Source: Stenopsyche tienmushanensis | Lineage: Eukaryota > Arthropoda > Insecta > Trichoptera > Stenopsychidae | DNA length: 64,000 bases | Direction: 5' to 3' | Assembly (NCBI GenBank): GCA_008973525.1 | Contig: WACJ01000042.1 | Span: 558,001 to 622,000 of the forward strand | Shown here: piece after piece, positions 18,961 to 64,000 of the stretch | How the letters are laid out: every line of letters begins with the position of its first letter | Numbering within the stretch: position 1 is the stretch's first letter | The notes under the pieces: model-generated | Seen by the model: only the letters and a program-made list of their open reading frames with translations | Databases searched by the model: none | Told to the model about the DNA's origin: nothing | Translations under genes and position numbers: made by a program

Positions 18961-18963
18961 ATT

Positions 18964-19170
18964 CTCCAGATCTGACACCACTGAATTTATTTGTCTGAGA
19001 ACGTGTCCTATTCCGTGACTCGCATGATCTCAGATCTGACACCGCTGAATTTCTTTGTGTGGGGACATGCCCTATTCTGTAGCTCACACGATCTCCAGAC
19101 TTAATACCACTGGATTTATTTGGGGATATGTCCTATTCCGTGGCTAGCATGGTCTCCAAATCTGACACAA
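18964..19170 (+). pseudogene. Tandemly multiplied transposase motif
   Basis: Three units of about 61-65 bp, plus the start of a fourth, each begin GATCTC(C)AGATCTGACACC or a variant and end near CCTATTCCGTG(G/A)CT(C/A)GCAT. Read in + frames, they encode SPDLTPLNLFV, RSDTAEFLCVGTCP and SPDLIPLDLFGD. These are degenerate versions of the SPDLTPLDFFLWG segment around the third catalytic residue of insect mariner-superfamily transposases. The motif has therefore been duplicated in tandem within a dead transposon, which is unusual. Frames differ between units and stops occur. Confidence 0.6.
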
Positions 19171-38480: not shown

Positions 38481-39014
38481 TTAACCGTTTCATGAGTACT
38501 CACGGAAATATCCGTTTTGACCTTCACTATTCAGAAAGGGCACTCTTGTGCATTGAAGCTCCGAGGCGGACAGAGACAGAGAGAACTTAGCGCAGTTCGG
38601 GAGACTGAGACGGATAGCTTCTTCATATGCATCGCATGATTGTATAGATCGTTAAGCCCAAATTTATCGACTTATAATGATTTCGATTTCAAGTGTGTTA
38701 TTTGTTTACGCAAAGAAACGACCGAATATTGTGTTATCGAGAGTGTTTATCTTCTCTGCGTCTTGAATGAGTCTTTGTTCAATTATCATTTCCTTCTAAA
38801 GGAGGAGCAAATGAATCGATTTTTTGTGCATTGTTTATGTAAAGAAATGACGTTGTCTTGTATTCACTATCAAGTGTTCATTTAGAATTGACTCTGCCTC
38901 GAATTGAAGATTGTCTTACGCTGATTAGGAGCTGACAGAAAGTAATCGGCGTAAAGCGATTATGACATCAACGACTTCATCGATTTTAAATTTGCTCACT
39001 AACGAAAAGGTTAA
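38481..39014 (+). mobile_element. TTAA family B element, both ends
   Basis: TTAA at 38481-38484 and 39011-39014 bound 534 bp. Inner ends are CCGTTTCATGAGTACT on the left and CTCACTAACGAAAAGG on the right; both TIRs begin TTAACC inward. The body is almost collinear with 57450-58005. It interrupts a repeat at AAGGTTTT/TTAA/ACTAATC, so the TTAA is a target duplication. The shared frame segment FDFKCVICLRKETTEYCV (within 38640-38885) also appears at 29500-29640. No transposase is encoded; mobilisation in trans by a piggyBac-type enzyme is inferred. Confidence 0.82.
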
Positions 39015-51395: not shown

Positions 51396-51624
51396 TCGAA
51401 TGATCAAGATATAATCGAAATAACAACTTGTTTTAAAAAAAAAATATAAAAGATCGAACCTTCTGGAAGCAGAACACAATAATATTCCAGATGATGATAG
51501 GAGCAACGTCCATATCTTAATTACCTTAATTTCCATATAAACTGGGCAATGGAATTACCTTACAAGAAGATCGCTACGAGAGAAGGACAACATTAAATCG
51601 AGTATAAAAAAGATGCCATACAGT

Positions 51625-51830
51625 CAAGCTTCGAGTCAACTTTGAGTCAGCTTCGGCTCAGCTCCGAGTGAGCTTCGAGCTAGCTTCGAATCAGTTTCGT
51701 CTCAGTTTCGAGTGAGCTACGAGTCTAGTTCTATGGCTTAGTCAGTTTCGAGTCTAATCAAGGTTCAGTTTAAGGCTCAACTTGAATTTAGATTTACTTC
51801 TAAGCTCGAGTTTGGGTCTTCTACGCCTCG
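51625..51830 (-). repeat. 11-bp degenerate minisatellite
   Basis: Tandem units such as GCTTCGAGTCA, GCTTCGGCTCA, GCTCCGAGTGA, GCTTCGAGCTA and GTTTCGAGTGA repeat with an 11-bp period from about 51628 to 51730, then decay to about 51830. A period of 11 is not a multiple of three, so it is not coding. Confidence 0.8.
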
Positions 51831-57079: not shown

Positions 57080-57422
57080 AATATTTGTATTTAAAAATGA
57101 TGAATATTTTATATGTGATACTTTTGAAATTCGTAGAATTGTTGAAAGTCGGTTGAGTGAATATGGAATTGTTTTTGAACATGAAATAGTAGCAACAACG
57201 ACTGATGGTGCTAGTGAGATGAAAAAGTTTGGGCGTAAAAGTCTCGTCGTCAATGAACTTTGCATAAATCATCCTATACAACTAGCTGCAATTGAAACGT
57301 TGTACCAGAAAACTTATCAAACAGAAACAGAAGAAGACTTAGATTATTCCAGTGAAGACGAACAAAACACTAAAGAAAGTGACTCCGAAAATGATAATTC
57401 AGGAACTAAAACCAAATCGTAA
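57080..57422 (+). pseudogene. hAT transposase catalytic-region fragment
   Basis: The frame reads NDEYFICDTFEIRRIVESRL, SEYGIVFEHEIVATTTDGAS, EMKKFGRKSLVVNELCINHP and IQLAAIETLYQK, then an acidic tail rich in E, D and S. The (I/V)V(A/S)(T)TTDGASVMKKFGR...LCxxHxIQLAVxDVLYKK pattern is the hAT RNase H-fold segment with the first catalytic Asp (TTTDGAS). Flanking parts are missing. A family B element starts 28 bp downstream. It is a different stretch from the C-terminal fragments at 41456 and 33065, so it may come from another element. Confidence 0.82.
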
Positions 57423-57449: not shown

Positions 57450-58005
57450 TTAACCTGTATGGGAGTACTATCGGAAATATCCGTTTTGACCTTCACTATT
57501 CAGAAAGAGCACTCTTGTGCATTGAAGCTCCGAGGCGGACAGAGACAGAGAGAACTTAGCGCAGTTCGGGAGACTGAGACGGCGAGCTTCTTCATATGCA
57601 TCGCATGATTGTATAGATCGCTAAGCCCAAATTTATCGACTTATAATGATTTCGATTTCAAGTGTGTTATTTGTTTACGCAAAGAAATGACCGAATATTG
57701 TGTGTTATCGAGAGTGTTTGTTTATTTAACTGCTTGCCGTTCTTCGCTGCGTGTTGAATGAGTCTTTGTTCAATTATCATTTCCTTTTAAAGGAGGAGCA
57801 AATGAATCGATTTTTTGTGCATTGTTTATGTAAAGAAATGACGTGGTCTTGTATTCACTATCAAGTGTTCATTTACAATTGACTCTGCCTCGAATTGAAG
57901 ATTGTCTTACACTGATTAGGAGCTGACAGAAAGTAATCGGTGTAAAGCGATTATGACAACAACGACTTCATCGATTTTAAATTTGCTCACTAACGAAAAG
58001 GTTAA
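57450..58005 (+). mobile_element. TTAA family B element, most complete copy
   Basis: TTAA at 57450-57453 and 58002-58005 bound 556 bp. Ends are CCTGTATGGGAGTACT and GCTCACTAACGAAAAGG. The body is near-identical to 38481-39014 and adds the TTATTTAACTGCTTGCCGTT segment missing there. No TIR longer than TTAACC was seen. Confidence 0.83.
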
Positions 58006-59515: not shown

Positions 59516-59880
59516 TTAAATTATAACTATGTAAAACACAAAAGAAATTTTCCATTGGTCCAATTTTACGTAATAAAAAAATAAATTCACAACATGGAGG
59601 CGATTTTGTAAAGCAGAATGATGCGAAATCCCTGATGCTGTTACGTGTATATCAGCTTCATATTGCGATAACAATCGAAATGCCTCCAAATGGCCATACA
59701 ACGATGCATTGTAATGTTCGTTGGTAGCGATGATATTCGAACCGTATTTAACTAATAATCAAATAATATTAAAATAATTTTGTGGGTGGTAAAAGTTTTC
59801 GATCATCTTCGTCAAGATCATAAAAATTATGTCATATGATAAGAGCAGCGAATCTACAAATAGGATTTTTTGCGCTGGGT
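59516..59880 (-). pseudogene. Degenerate continuation of the ankyrin array
   Basis: On the minus strand, downstream of the ankyrin stop codon, frames read PICRFAALII, DLDEDDRKLLPPTK, RFEYHRYQRT and then, from 59701, YGHLEAFRLLSQYEADIHVT, ASGISHHSALQNRLHVVNLF. They align with the order of the 97-residue unit (GHPIDDRD..., GSNINAVN..., GHLEAV..LLQYGADIHATASGTPLHCAAQENHLHVV). Stops and frame shifts are frequent. The gene's array was therefore once at least one unit longer, or these are the decayed remains of an older version. Confidence 0.75.
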
Positions 59881-59884
59881 AAAG

Positions 59885-62800
59885 TTAAAGAGCCCCAGAT
59901 GCGTACAAATCATCTTCATATTGCAACAGCACTTTAACTGCATTCCTACACCCATACAGAGACGCATACGCTATAGGAGTGATGCCGAGTTTGCACTCTG
60001 CTCTAATATTCGAACCCTTTTGAAGTAATCTTTTAATTATATTAACGTGACCCTCCCTAGCTGCCCAATGTAAGGGCGTTCGGTCGTTTTCGTCGAGATA
60101 CTCAAGAGGATTTCCTGACGAGAGCAGCAAGTCCACAATTTGGAGATGATTTTTAAACGCTGCGCGATGTAAAGGAGTCCCTGATGCTGTTCCATAAATA
60201 TCAGCTTTATTTTGCAACAACAATCGAACTACATCCAAATGGCCATACATGGATGCAAGTGTCAAAGGCGTATTGTCGTATTGGTTAACAGCGTTGATAT
60301 TCGAACCTTTTCCAATTAATCTCAGAATAATGCCAAGGTTGCCGCTTGAAGCTGCATAATGTAAAGGAGTCGCGTTGTGTTCATCGCGATCATCAATAGG
60401 ATGTCCACACGAGAGAAGTAATTCAAAAATTTGGAGATGATTTCCTTGCACTGCGCAATGCAAAGGAGTCCTTGATGCTGTTGCGTGTATATCAGCTCCA
60501 TATTGCAATAAAGTTTTAACGGCTTCCAAATGGCCATTTGAAGAAGCTTCTGTCAAAGGCGTGTGATTGCTTTCATTGATAGCGTTGATATTCGAACCCC
60601 TTTCAATCAATTTTCTAATGGTTGCGGAGCGACCCTTTAAAGAGGCCCAATGTAAAGGCGTCGAATCGTATTTATCGATATCATCAATTGGATGTCCAGA
60701 CGAGAGCAGCAAATCCACAACTTGGACATGATTTTCTTGCACTGCGCAATGCAAAGGAGTCTTGGATGATGTTGCGTGTATATCAGCTCCATATTGCAAT
60801 AAAGTTTTAACTGCATCCAAATGGCCTTTTAATGAAGCATCTATCAAAGGTGTGTTATCTTTTTTGTTGATAGCGTTAATATACGAACCATTTTCAATTA
60901 ATCTTCTAATGATATCAGAGTGACCGTTTAAAGCAGCCCTATGCAAAGGCGTCGAATCGAATTTATCGCGATCGTCAATAGGATGTCCAGACGAGAGCAG
61001 CAAATCCACAATTTGGAGATGATTTTCTTGTGCTGCGCAATGTAAAGGAGTCCCTGATGCTGTTGCGTGTATATCAGCTCCATATTGCAATAAAGATTTA
61101 ACTGCTTCCAAATGGCCATTAAAAGAAGCTTCTAGCAAAGGTGTACTATCGTCTTTGTCAATAACATTGATAGTTGAACCATTTTCAATTAATCTTCTAA
61201 TGATATCAGAGTGACCGTTTAAAGCAGCCCTATGTAAAGGCGTCGAATCGTATTTATCGCGATCATCAATAGGATGTCCAGACGAGAGCAGAAAATCCAC
61301 AATTTGGAGATGATTTTCTTGTGCTGCGCAATGTAAAGGAGTCCCTGATGCTGTTGCGTGTATATCAGCTCCATATTGCAATAAATTTTTAACAGTATCC
61401 AAATGGCCTTTTAATGAAGCATCTATCAAAGGTGTTTTATCGATTTTGTTAACAGCGTTAATATTCGAACCCTTTTCAATTAATCTTCTGATGATGTCAG
61501 AGTGACCGTTTAAAGCAGCCCTATGTAAAGGCGTCGAATCGTATTTATCGCGATCATCAATAGGATCTCCAGACGAGAGCAGAAAATCCACAATTTGGAG
61601 ATGATTTTCTTGTGCTGCGCAATGTAAAGGAGTCCCTGATGCTGTTGCGTGTTTATCAGCTCCATACTGCAATAAAGTGTTAACTGCTTCTAAATGACCA
61701 TTTAATGAAGCTTCTAGCAAAGGTGTATTATCGGTTTTGTTAACAGCGTTAATATTCGAACCTTTTTCAATTAATCTTCTGATGATGTCAGAGTGACCTT
61801 TTAAAGCAGCCCTATGTAAAGGCGTAAATTCGTATTTATCGCGATCATCAATAGGCTGTCCAGACGAGAGCAGCAAGTTCACAACATGGAGATGATTTTC
61901 TTGCGCTGCGCAATGCAAGGGAGTCTTGGATGCTGTTGCGTGTATATCAGCTCCATATTGCAATAAAGTTTTAACTGCATCCAAATGGCCTTTTAATGAA
62001 GCTTCTAGCAAAGGTGTGTTATCGTCTTTGCTAACAGCGTTAATATTCGAACCCTTTTCAATTAATCTTCTGATGATGTCAGAGTGACCTTTTAAAGCAG
62101 CCCTATGTAAAGGCGTCAATTCGTATTCATCGCGATCATCAATAGGATGTCCAGACGAGAGCAGCAAGTCCACAACATGGAGATGATTTTTGTCTGCTGC
62201 GCAATGCAAAGGAGTCTTGGATGCTGTTGCGTGTATATCAGCTCCATACTGCAATAAAGTGTTAACTGCATCCAAATGGCCTTTTAATGAAGCATCTATC
62301 AAAGGTGTGTTATCGCTTTTATTGACAGCGTTGATATTCGAACCATTTTCAATTAATCTTCTGATGATGTCAGAGTGACCCTTTATAGATGCCCAATGTA
62401 AGGGCGTCGAATCGTATTTATTGCGATCATCAATAGGATGTCCAGACGACAGCAGCAAATCCACAACTTGGAGATGATTTTCTTGCGCTGCGCAATGCAA
62501 AGGAGTCGCTGATGCTGTTGCGTGTATATCAGCTCCATATTGCAATAAAGTTATAACTGTATCCAAATGGCCTTTTAATGAAGCTTCTAGCAAAGGTGTG
62601 TTATCTTTTTTGTTGATAGCGTTAATATACGAACCCTTTTCAATTAATCTTCTAATGATATCAGAGTGACCGTTTAAAGCAGCCCTATGTAAAGGCGTCG
62701 AATCGTATTTATCGCGATCATCAATAGGATGTTCAGACGAGAGCAGCAAATCCACAACTTGGAGATGATTTTCTTGCGCTGCGCAATGCAAAGGAGTCGC

Positions 62801-63013
62801 TGATGCTGTTGCGTGTATATCAGCTCCATATTGCAAAAAAGTTTTAACTGCTTCTAAATGACCATTTAATGAAGCAACTAGCAAAGGTGTGTTATCGTCT
62901 TTGTCAATGGCGTTGATATTCGAACCATTTTCAATTAATCTTCTAATGATATCAGAGTGACCGTTCTTAGCTGCCTGATGTAAAGGCTGTTCAGATGAAA
63001 CAAGCACGTCCAT
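59885..63013 (-). CDS. Intronless ankyrin-repeat protein with ten 97-residue super-repeats
   Basis: An uninterrupted frame of 1042 codons from the first ATG (63013-63011, context TTAGTTATGG) to TAA at 59885-59887. An upstream GTG at 63040 extends it by nine codons but is not a likely eukaryotic start. The N-terminus is MDVLVSSEQPLHQAAKN, with no signal peptide. It then has ten units of 97 residues, each made of three ankyrin repeats (33, 32 and 32 residues): GHSDIIRRLIEKGSNINAVN..., GHLDAVKTLLQYGADIHATA..., and HLQVVDLLLSSGHPIDDRD.... An eleventh partial unit ends in QYEDDLYASGAL. Canonical TPLH and G-A-D/N signatures are present in most repeats. There are no other domains, no membrane segment and no cysteine-rich tail. 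Ankyrin arrays serve as protein-binding scaffolds; the partner here is unknown. Central units are highly alike, and units 9-11 are divergent. An alternative 5' exon spliced at TTCATCTGAACAG/CCT (62987/62986) is possible. Confidence 0.88.
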   Translation of the reverse strand: MDVLVSSEQPLHQAAKNGHSDIIRRLIENGSNINAIDKDDNTPLLVASLNGHLEAVKTFLQYGADIHATASATPLHCAAQENHLQVVDLLLSSEHPIDDRDKYDSTPLHRAALNGHSDIIRRLIEKGSYINAINKKDNTPLLEASLKGHLDTVITLLQYGADIHATASATPLHCAAQENHLQVVDLLLSSGHPIDDRNKYDSTPLHWASIKGHSDIIRRLIENGSNINAVNKSDNTPLIDASLKGHLDAVNTLLQYGADIHATASKTPLHCAADKNHLHVVDLLLSSGHPIDDRDEYELTPLHRAALKGHSDIIRRLIEKGSNINAVSKDDNTPLLEASLKGHLDAVKTLLQYGADIHATASKTPLHCAAQENHLHVVNLLLSSGQPIDDRDKYEFTPLHRAALKGHSDIIRRLIEKGSNINAVNKTDNTPLLEASLNGHLEAVNTLLQYGADKHATASGTPLHCAAQENHLQIVDFLLSSGDPIDDRDKYDSTPLHRAALNGHSDIIRRLIEKGSNINAVNKIDKTPLIDASLKGHLDTVKNLLQYGADIHATASGTPLHCAAQENHLQIVDFLLSSGHPIDDRDKYDSTPLHRAALNGHSDIIRRLIENGSTINVIDKDDSTPLLEASFNGHLEAVKSLLQYGADIHATASGTPLHCAAQENHLQIVDLLLSSGHPIDDRDKFDSTPLHRAALNGHSDIIRRLIENGSYINAINKKDNTPLIDASLKGHLDAVKTLLQYGADIHATSSKTPLHCAVQENHVQVVDLLLSSGHPIDDIDKYDSTPLHWASLKGRSATIRKLIERGSNINAINESNHTPLTEASSNGHLEAVKTLLQYGADIHATASRTPLHCAVQGNHLQIFELLLSCGHPIDDRDEHNATPLHYAASSGNLGIILRLIGKGSNINAVNQYDNTPLTLASMYGHLDVVRLLLQNKADIYGTASGTPLHRAAFKNHLQIVDLLLSSGNPLEYLDENDRTPLHWAAREGHVNIIKRLLQKGSNIRAECKLGITPIAYASLYGCRNAVKVLLQYEDDLYASGAL

Positions 63014-63066
63014 AACTAAGTACGTATTATCGTTTACCACCGTAATATATTCACGAAACTGTTTCG

Positions 63067-63106
63067 ATGAAACTGTGTTGTAATCGTGAAACTACCTTTA
63101 TATAAG
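63067..63106 (-). promoter_or_regulatory. Core promoter of the ankyrin gene (TATA plus initiator)
   Basis: Minus-strand TATATAAAG lies at 63104-63096. An initiator-like ACAGTT has its A at 63074, 30 bases from the first T of the TATA box, the canonical TATA-to-start distance in arthropods. The implied leader is about 60 nt and contains no ATG before the 63013 start. This is sequence inference only. Confidence 0.6.
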
Positions 63107-63685
63107 CTTTATAATATTCATTTTATCTCCTATCTTATCTCCAATTTAATATTGCTTCTACATCTGGAAAAAGGCTCTTGTATAAATATGTATTTCTACA
63201 GTTTTAAAATGAACTCACTAATCAAAAGGTTAAGACGCTTCTTTTGTACCAGCGCATCGTTCGCGATTCTTGTGTACCACACAGAGGTACAATGGTTGTC
63301 GAGAAATAAAGTTTTAAGCAGAGTTTATGAGCTCCATAAAGAAATAGGACTGTTTCTCGAAAACCAGAACACAACAAGAAAAAAATTAGTACTCTAAAAT
63401 GAAAGATTAAACATTTGTCGAAATTCTGGCGTATTTTGCTGATTTTTTCAGTGAAATGAACAGTCTGAATATCTCATTACTGGGAAATATGAGGTATATC
63501 TCAACAGTAAAAGATAAAATTGCAAGTTTTCTGTGTAAATTGGAACTCTGGAACTGGAAAAGTGTCTTCCATCAATATTTCTTCAGTCCTAAAGCACAGT
63601 GCTTCCAGGTGCCCACCCCTCCTCTAGAACGTCCCCAGAGAAGGTGAGGCACAATGAGGAAGACTGACTTCCAAAAGTCCATCAT
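63107..63685. other. No gene seen upstream of the ankyrin gene
   Basis: Plus frames at 63086-63397 (103 codons) and 63456-63647 are not recognised. The former starts inside the promoter on the opposite strand, so is likely chance. Confidence 0.4.
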
Positions 63686-63689
63686 CAAT

Positions 63690-64000
63690 TTGAAGGGGAT
63701 TGCTGCACACAGGCATAAGATTGCTCCCCACCGTGGCTTTGCTTTTTGGCACGTATTCGAGAGGTTCAATTTTCGATGACTTTGTCGCATGAATCTGGCT
63801 GAATGTGCTGGATGGGACTCGTTACATTGTTTTTTTAAGGCATAAATTGTTTGCGGTTTATACGCATGGATCTGCAATTTAATATAGTCCCACAGGAAGA
63901 AGTCTAAAGGAGTTAAATCGGCGGACATTTCACGTCGCCGCCGCGCAAGAAAACCATACCCTCAAATCACTCACGCAAAATGTCCATCGTGACATACGCT
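63690..64000 (-). pseudogene. Mariner-superfamily transposase relic, truncated by window edge
   Basis: Minus strand reads YVTMDILRE at the window edge, then FEGMVFLRGGDVKCPP, and after a frame change DLTPLDFFLWDYIKLQIHAY, KPQTIYALKKQCNES, a second frame change, then VIENWTSRIRAKKQSHGG. The family form is ...TMDILRE.F....(I/V)SR.GDV.WPPRSPDLTPLDFFLWGYVK..VY...P.TI..LK...EI...VIENW..R......GGH. The third catalytic residue region (DLTPLDFF) is intact, but frameshifts disable it. The same C-terminus is seen at 9576-9835. The N-terminal half lies beyond 64000. Confidence 0.78.

Follow-up and report, generated by a model that had tools for sequence, protein, structure and literature searches.

The window analysed here, 64 000 nucleotides of contig WACJ01000042.1 from the caddisfly Stenopsyche tienmushanensis, carries on its minus strand a gene for a long ankyrin-repeat array. 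This gene belongs to a caddisfly multigene family whose members appear to lack introns and each encode a solenoid of ankyrin repeats only. The open frame, 59885-63040, counts 1051 codons if it starts at a GTG and 1042 if it starts at the likely ATG at 63013; the first repeat begins 8 residues after that ATG. Altogether the protein has 32 ankyrin repeats, arranged as ten full units of 97 residues (291 bp), each made of three repeats of 33, 31, and 33 residues, followed by two thirds (64 residues) of an eleventh. The gene and its parts are as follows.

59885..63013, minus strand: ankyrin-array gene in a single frame, with 1042 codons from the ATG and then a stop codon (open-frame and domain analysis)
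62699..62989, minus strand: unit 1 (97 amino acids), nearest to unit 1 of other loci
60662..62698, minus strand: units 2-8, the interior, without a consistent positional counterpart in other loci
60080..60661, minus strand: units 9 and 10, nearest respectively to the last full unit but one and to the last full unit at other loci
59888..60079, minus strand: partial unit 11 (two ankyrin repeats), a C-terminus common to close relatives
59560..59884, minus strand: decayed remnant, by eye, of a further array past the stop codon, with repeat family D7 at 59606-59707

A sequence-only reading of this DNA had described an array of 97-residue, 291-bp three-ankyrin units, and the frame bears this out, as do Tandem Repeats Finder (period 291, 10.1 copies, 87% matches, 0% indels) and the ungapped copies, which sit exactly 291 bp apart. 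Its description of the array as homogenised holds only moderately: units 1-8 share 85-94% of their DNA sequence and 73-89% of their protein sequence (85% being reached by some pairs only), but unit 9 (81-84% DNA identity) and unit 10 (70-75% against the others) have diverged, no two units are identical, and the closest pair is 5.8% different. The residues that it listed after ATAS in units 1-9 (A, A, K, K, G, G, G, K, R) are correct, except that unit 8 has ATSS; unit 10 has GTASG. It also linked SLN with GHLE and SLK with GHLD. The linkage stands insofar as N is paired with E, and K with D, in nine of nine units (1-9), though units 7 and 9 have SFN and SSN instead of SLN, and unit 10 (SMY-GHLD) departs from it. 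Read in order, units 1-9 are E, D, D, D, E, D, E, D, E, so the two types alternate and do not cluster. In ankyrin numbering, two of these markers fall on the ligand face: position 5 is taken by the residue that follows ATAS, and position 14 by the variable residue of SLN/SLK.

Pfam Ank_2 matches the window protein at E 2.7e-274, and five of five family proteins scanned (the window protein and four relatives) are ankyrin from end to end. No NACHT or NB-ARC domain was found by Pfam in these five, and neither a ZU5 nor a death domain is among the 15 Pfam names for the window protein, whose frame stops at 59885. An alignment-based prediction for units 5-8 gives a regular ankyrin solenoid with a predicted local distance difference test score (pLDDT) of 95.4, whose PDB fold matches include DARPins (designed ankyrin repeat proteins), ankyrins, and NOMPC; the whole protein predicted from its single sequence (pLDDT 36.5) gave no usable model.

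The window protein, used as query against the 451.46-Mb assembly (549 contigs), found 74 matches spread over at least 21 loci (44 of 286 candidates scored), and a second query added one locus on C169, bringing the count to at least 22. The mitochondrial COX1 of this assembly agrees at 100% identity over 447 amino acids with a Stenopsyche entry. Family statistics refer mostly to the 21 loci, and the added locus was held out when the promoter pattern was sought. Counting partial ones, the main frames of the 21 loci contain 8 to 77 unit matches in 750 to 7,444 amino acids, the spacing from unit to unit is exactly 97 amino acids in 414 of 433 cases, and at 18 of the loci there is a single main frame whose start is conserved. 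Family genes cluster in the genome, with four on C518 and pairs on C246, C376, C520, and C169. Seven close relatives, the window gene included, have a common C-terminus and six of them a common N-terminus, while their unit numbers differ. What was first noted as one array is therefore larger, a whole caddisfly family, and no earlier report of it appears among the papers listed by our searches of the open-licence literature; the word ankyrin is absent from the main text of the genome paper (PMC6302954). No close homologue above 38% identity appears in other species among the best 120 of 7,010 and the best 120 of 7,716 matches, which does not prove lineage restriction.

Two features of individual members may be mentioned here. 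A short lysine and hydrophobic tail (KKKNIF... or KKKNLF...) follows the last ankyrin at three loci, L019, L021, and L037/L038 (C169, C37). The single frame at C520:1731514-1753857 is 7,444 residues long, and its 77 unit matches amount to about 230 ankyrin repeats.

The family also shares a core promoter. Roughly 160 bp before the ATG can be aligned in all 19 loci with sufficient upstream sequence, and beyond this only close relatives align (by eye). The alignment places these elements in the window:

63134..63139, minus strand: GATAAG motif
63122-63127, minus strand: GATAAA, 12 bp downstream of the window GATAAG, in an alignment column where most other loci have GATAAG
63097..63105, minus strand: TATA box TTATATAAA
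63070..63076, minus strand: ACAGTTT, resembling an initiator, about 30 bp downstream of the TATA box

Of the 19 aligned promoters, 18 have an exact GATAAG, 15 have TTATAWA, and 18 have AYARTTT about 30 bp further on. GATAAG density is 5.25 per kb in the proximal 200 bp (20 loci, of which one is represented by 61 bp only), 0.54 per kb farther upstream, and 0.19 per kb in the window; the held-out 22nd locus carries the same GATA and TATA elements. A promoter shared upstream of the presumed start argues for duplication at the DNA level rather than retrocopying, and for co-regulation. Insect GATA factors drive gut or fat-body genes, and the GATA motif suggests co-regulated expression, perhaps in one of these tissues; our search of the literature on GATA sites and insect gut promoters found nothing directly usable. 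The published RNA of S. tienmushanensis was taken from bodies whose guts had been removed (PMC6302954).

Two other origins were considered. We reject a processed retrogene, since all 19 loci used keep the promoter block ahead of the presumed start. Transfer of the genes from bacteria would accord with their intronless appearance and with the symbiont ankyrin proteins among the database matches, but identities to these matches are low, and ankyrin repeats cannot settle origin.

Units tend to resemble others of their own locus most: among 411 full units without gaps, 290 have their closest match there. Position matters, in that window unit 1 pairs with unit 1 elsewhere, and units 9 and 10 with the last two full units, whereas units 2-8 have no consistent match. 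The proportion of synonymous differences (pS) is 0.14-0.22 for end units between loci, 0.144 within the window interior, and 0.265 for unit 3 between loci, this unit being the sole interior index compared between loci. The higher value means that, between loci, interior units appear to coalesce deeper than the ends, as turnover predicts. Gain, loss, and exchange of units can be seen in the relatives. Four consecutive units (6-9) on C192 are 0-0.3% apart, and units 18-27 on C234 are nearly alike. Two genes on C246 have 15 collinear 3′ units at 99.3-100% identity and different 5′ parts; one of them has a two-unit duplication (units 2,3 against 4,5 at 96.2 and 99.0%), and in its counterpart, one-unit duplications would explain why units 7,8, and likewise units 9,10, point to the same closest partner, although these units are >5% apart. 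The giant C520 frame (22 kb) contains higher-order blocks of 9, 11, and 20 units and 57 identical unit pairs. Neighbouring units are significantly alike (p < 0.05) in 14 of 21 loci over whole arrays. Within the window array, 236 of 435 informative site pairs do not pass the four-gamete test, and neighbour clustering by permutation gives p = 0.017 with all ten units, 0.029 with units 1-9, and 0.14 with units 1-8, a weak signal that comes from the divergent end units. Whole-unit exchange with the frame kept open is thus well supported as a family-wide process, an older one in the window array, and we hold with high confidence that the family exists and that its units turn over.

Such turnover might mean no more than the ordinary birth and death of repeats, by slippage or unequal crossing-over as known from repeat proteins generally, and with no special role. 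The ratio of nonsynonymous to synonymous rates (dN/dS) of 0.58 in the window agrees with this, and horizontal evolution of repeats with dN/dS below 1 has been described as universal (PMC5120217). A single repeat protein would nevertheless not offer what is seen here: homogenisation across each locus, a family of at least 22 loci, a promoter in common, and a contrast between ends and interior. We rate ordinary birth and death as an unlikely account of the whole, if one to be taken seriously.

The same ratio, 0.58 among the ten window units and 0.57 among units 1-9, is not neutral, and it ranges from 0.33 to 0.63 within each of the 21 loci. The corresponding ratio of proportions (pN/pS) is 0.32-0.47 for end units between loci and 0.58 in the window interior. 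These values point to purifying selection overall, acting on the framework. Alignment columns were then mapped to ankyrin positions, with the DARPin variable positions 2, 3, 5, 13, 14, and 33 taken by us as the ligand face, and with exposed-back and core positions likewise of our own choosing. In the window, ligand positions have a pN/pS of 1.32 (confidence interval 0.93-1.90), other exposed positions 0.65, and the core 0.28; the all-locus values are 0.92 (0.74-1.12), 0.46, and 0.26. Ligand positions in the window differ from other exposed ones in pN (0.278 vs 0.137, p = 0.0017), and over all loci the difference persists in unit pairs ≤8% apart (p = 0.0057). Since ligand positions vary more than other exposed ones, more than exposure frees the ligand face.

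We therefore favour, as fairly probable, a family of pure ankyrin solenoids with interior unit turnover, most likely serving the recognition or sequestration of variable ligands. Several results weigh against this interpretation or parts of it. The ligand-site pN/pS interval spans 1 in all five sets tested, and such intervals resample columns, treating non-independent unit pairs as independent. Relaxed constraint would thus suffice; diversifying selection at ligand positions is possible, and the suggestion of the sequence-only reading, that the protein is selected for rapid turnover of a binding surface, gains from the faster change at ligand positions and stays plausible but unproven, given an interval that includes 1. 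The tests of unit exchange are uneven as well. The neighbour test restricted to the interior (first and last two units dropped) gives p < 0.05 in 10 of 18 loci and >0.05 in the other 8, three of the 21 loci having too few units; for the window it gives p = 0.39. A run-length test for conversion in the window gives p = 0.32, with 8 of 36 unit pairs below 0.05 uncorrected, and linkage decays only slightly with distance (p = 0.027). The window array has been shuffled, but not lately. Unequal crossing-over or conversion between units in an open frame, as first proposed, is accordingly visible in the relatives, with neighbour clustering weak in the window, and the words ‘recent’ and ‘local duplication blocks’ are not supported for an array whose closest units differ as much as they do here and whose interior and conversion tests are not significant.

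The relaxed alternative can be given a definite form, in which the protein is a structural or elastic scaffold. Such a long spring of ankyrin repeats could drift in length under no selection for new ligands; changes in unit number would be tolerated, and ligand positions would vary only because they are unconstrained. A ligand-site ratio near 1 and not clearly above it is what this account would expect, and it sits well with the strongly constrained framework (core pN/pS 0.28), with five of five scanned proteins lacking an effector domain, and with NOMPC and ankyrins among the PDB fold matches. That other exposed positions are more constrained than ligand ones, by the pN contrast given above, is not obviously predicted by it, and we regard the elastic scaffold as possible, but on the unlikely side.

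Further points against the favoured interpretation concern the Pfam matches and whether the genes are intact. In whole-protein Pfam scans WCX, DUF7234, DUF249, UPF0300, and others exceed the cut-offs, though no single stretch passes alone and all overlie ankyrin repeats. No stop codon is seen where 13.2 are expected, an argument conditional on having picked an open frame. Stops are read through in 6 of 74 matches of the first query and 3 of 45 of the second, some of them at frame ends, and three of 21 loci are interrupted or truncated: C518_519 is split over two frames, C518_668 is without the conserved start, and the 3′ end of C126 continues in another frame. Together with the decayed array past the stop codon in the window and in some close relatives, and with surroundings that look transposon-like by eye, the interrupted loci could suggest mostly dead, satellite-like arrays that happen to keep an open frame and are largely pseudogenes. 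Against this, dN/dS is 0.33-0.63 in each of 21 loci and core pN/pS is 0.28, main frames reach from 750 to 7,444 amino acids, and the core promoter is conserved; we consider dead arrays very improbable.

The assembly, too, has to be weighed. It was built from PacBio reads of two pooled females with a mean subread length of 7.6 kb, according to the genome paper (PMC6302954), and tandem arrays are prone to mis-assembly. The 77-unit gene on C520 may be a real giant gene or partly an assembly expansion, given such subreads. For the window array, an assembly artefact deserves next to no credence, as its 3.1 kb are shorter than the mean read and its closest units are 5.8% apart.

Elsewhere in the window we note several repeats. 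Transposase-like fragments (hAT/ZBED-type and mariner-type by eye) lie at 63086-63397 (+), 57153-57422 (+), and 63572-63928 (-); Pfam found no transposase domain in these three flanking frames. A 64-bp tandem repeat (3.3 copies, 18963-19168) repeats in translation an SPDLTPLN-like motif, which by eye resembles one seen in mariner-type transposases. A minisatellite at 51622-51728 has an 11-bp unit, AGTCAACTTCG/AGTCAGCTTCG, with 22- and 44-bp higher orders. The pair 38481-39014 and 57450-58005, 92-97% identical and with further inverted relatives, is probably a recent interspersed element.

Returning to the ankyrin family, our best guess is a binding role with a changing groove, in an evolutionary regime that we liken to that of the repeat domains of fungal NOD-like receptors (NLRs). 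The protein would be cytosolic and serve as a modular scaffold for binding. Unequal exchange and conversion between its units would change both its length and its groove, and the ends of the array may act as fixed caps. That its role is to recognise or sequester variable protein ligands we propose tentatively, as a reading with somewhat less than even prospects. More speculative, and rather unlikely, is that the insect encodes in its germline a library of DARPin-like binders, co-regulated pure ankyrin solenoids directed at variable non-self or symbiont proteins. New surfaces would then come from exchange of whole three-ankyrin units and diversification of groove positions, and the library, which lacks NLR domains altogether, would have arisen separately from fungal NLRs.

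In fungal NLRs, the WD40, ANK, and TPR domains have homogenised repeats (>85% identity over at least 100 amino acids being the criterion), repeat-number polymorphism, and changes on the concave face, as described in PMC2873952 and PMC4986451. Like these domains (hnwd WD40; Podospora ANK and TPR NLRs), the caddisfly family has several members with tandem repeats homogenised within loci, repeat numbers that differ among copies, and variation concentrated on the ligand surface, which is concave in fungal NLRs. It differs in being animal, in having a three-ankyrin super-repeat and neither NACHT/NB-ARC nor an effector domain, in showing its repeat-number variation between paralogues, and in a ligand-site pN/pS not clearly above 1. 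We do not file it as a fungal-type NLR because no nucleotide-binding oligomerisation domain (NOD) was found.

Among animal proteins, ANK1-3 likewise have a long ankyrin solenoid, and ankyrins are both among the fold matches and the best PDB sequence matches of the window protein (ankyrin-1/2, E 6.9e-124), yet the caddisfly units are far more alike, belong to a multigene family, and come with no ZU5 or death domain that we found. The latrotoxin family has a large non-ankyrin N-terminal domain preceding its repeats. We reject kinship with it, as the likeness is one of ankyrin repeats to ankyrin repeats, latrotoxin chains match at E 7.9e-66 and weaker against 6.9e-124 for ankyrins, and the repeats here start 8 residues after the ATG. 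Other super-repeat ankyrins in the databases are also internally similar multi-ankyrin arrays, but their periods are 101 (for example P0001, P0011, P0019) or 66-68 (among them P0241, P0243, P0248 with 66-67), identity to them is ≤38% among the matches listed, and some have further domains; a top period of 97 occurs in none of the 239 database matches listed (best 120 per search). DARPins combine a fixed framework with variable positions 2, 3, 5, 13, 14, and 33, and the caddisfly arrays resemble them in this, whereas the latter are natural, have three distinct repeats per unit, and vary at position 10 too in two of the three repeats. If expressed, the family would give animals a natural equivalent of engineered ankyrin libraries and of the fast-evolving repeats of fungal non-self recognition, pared down to a form that has no signalling domain. 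Its many loci share a unit length and a promoter type, which makes it a clean system for measuring how selection on a binding face, unequal exchange, and conversion combine.

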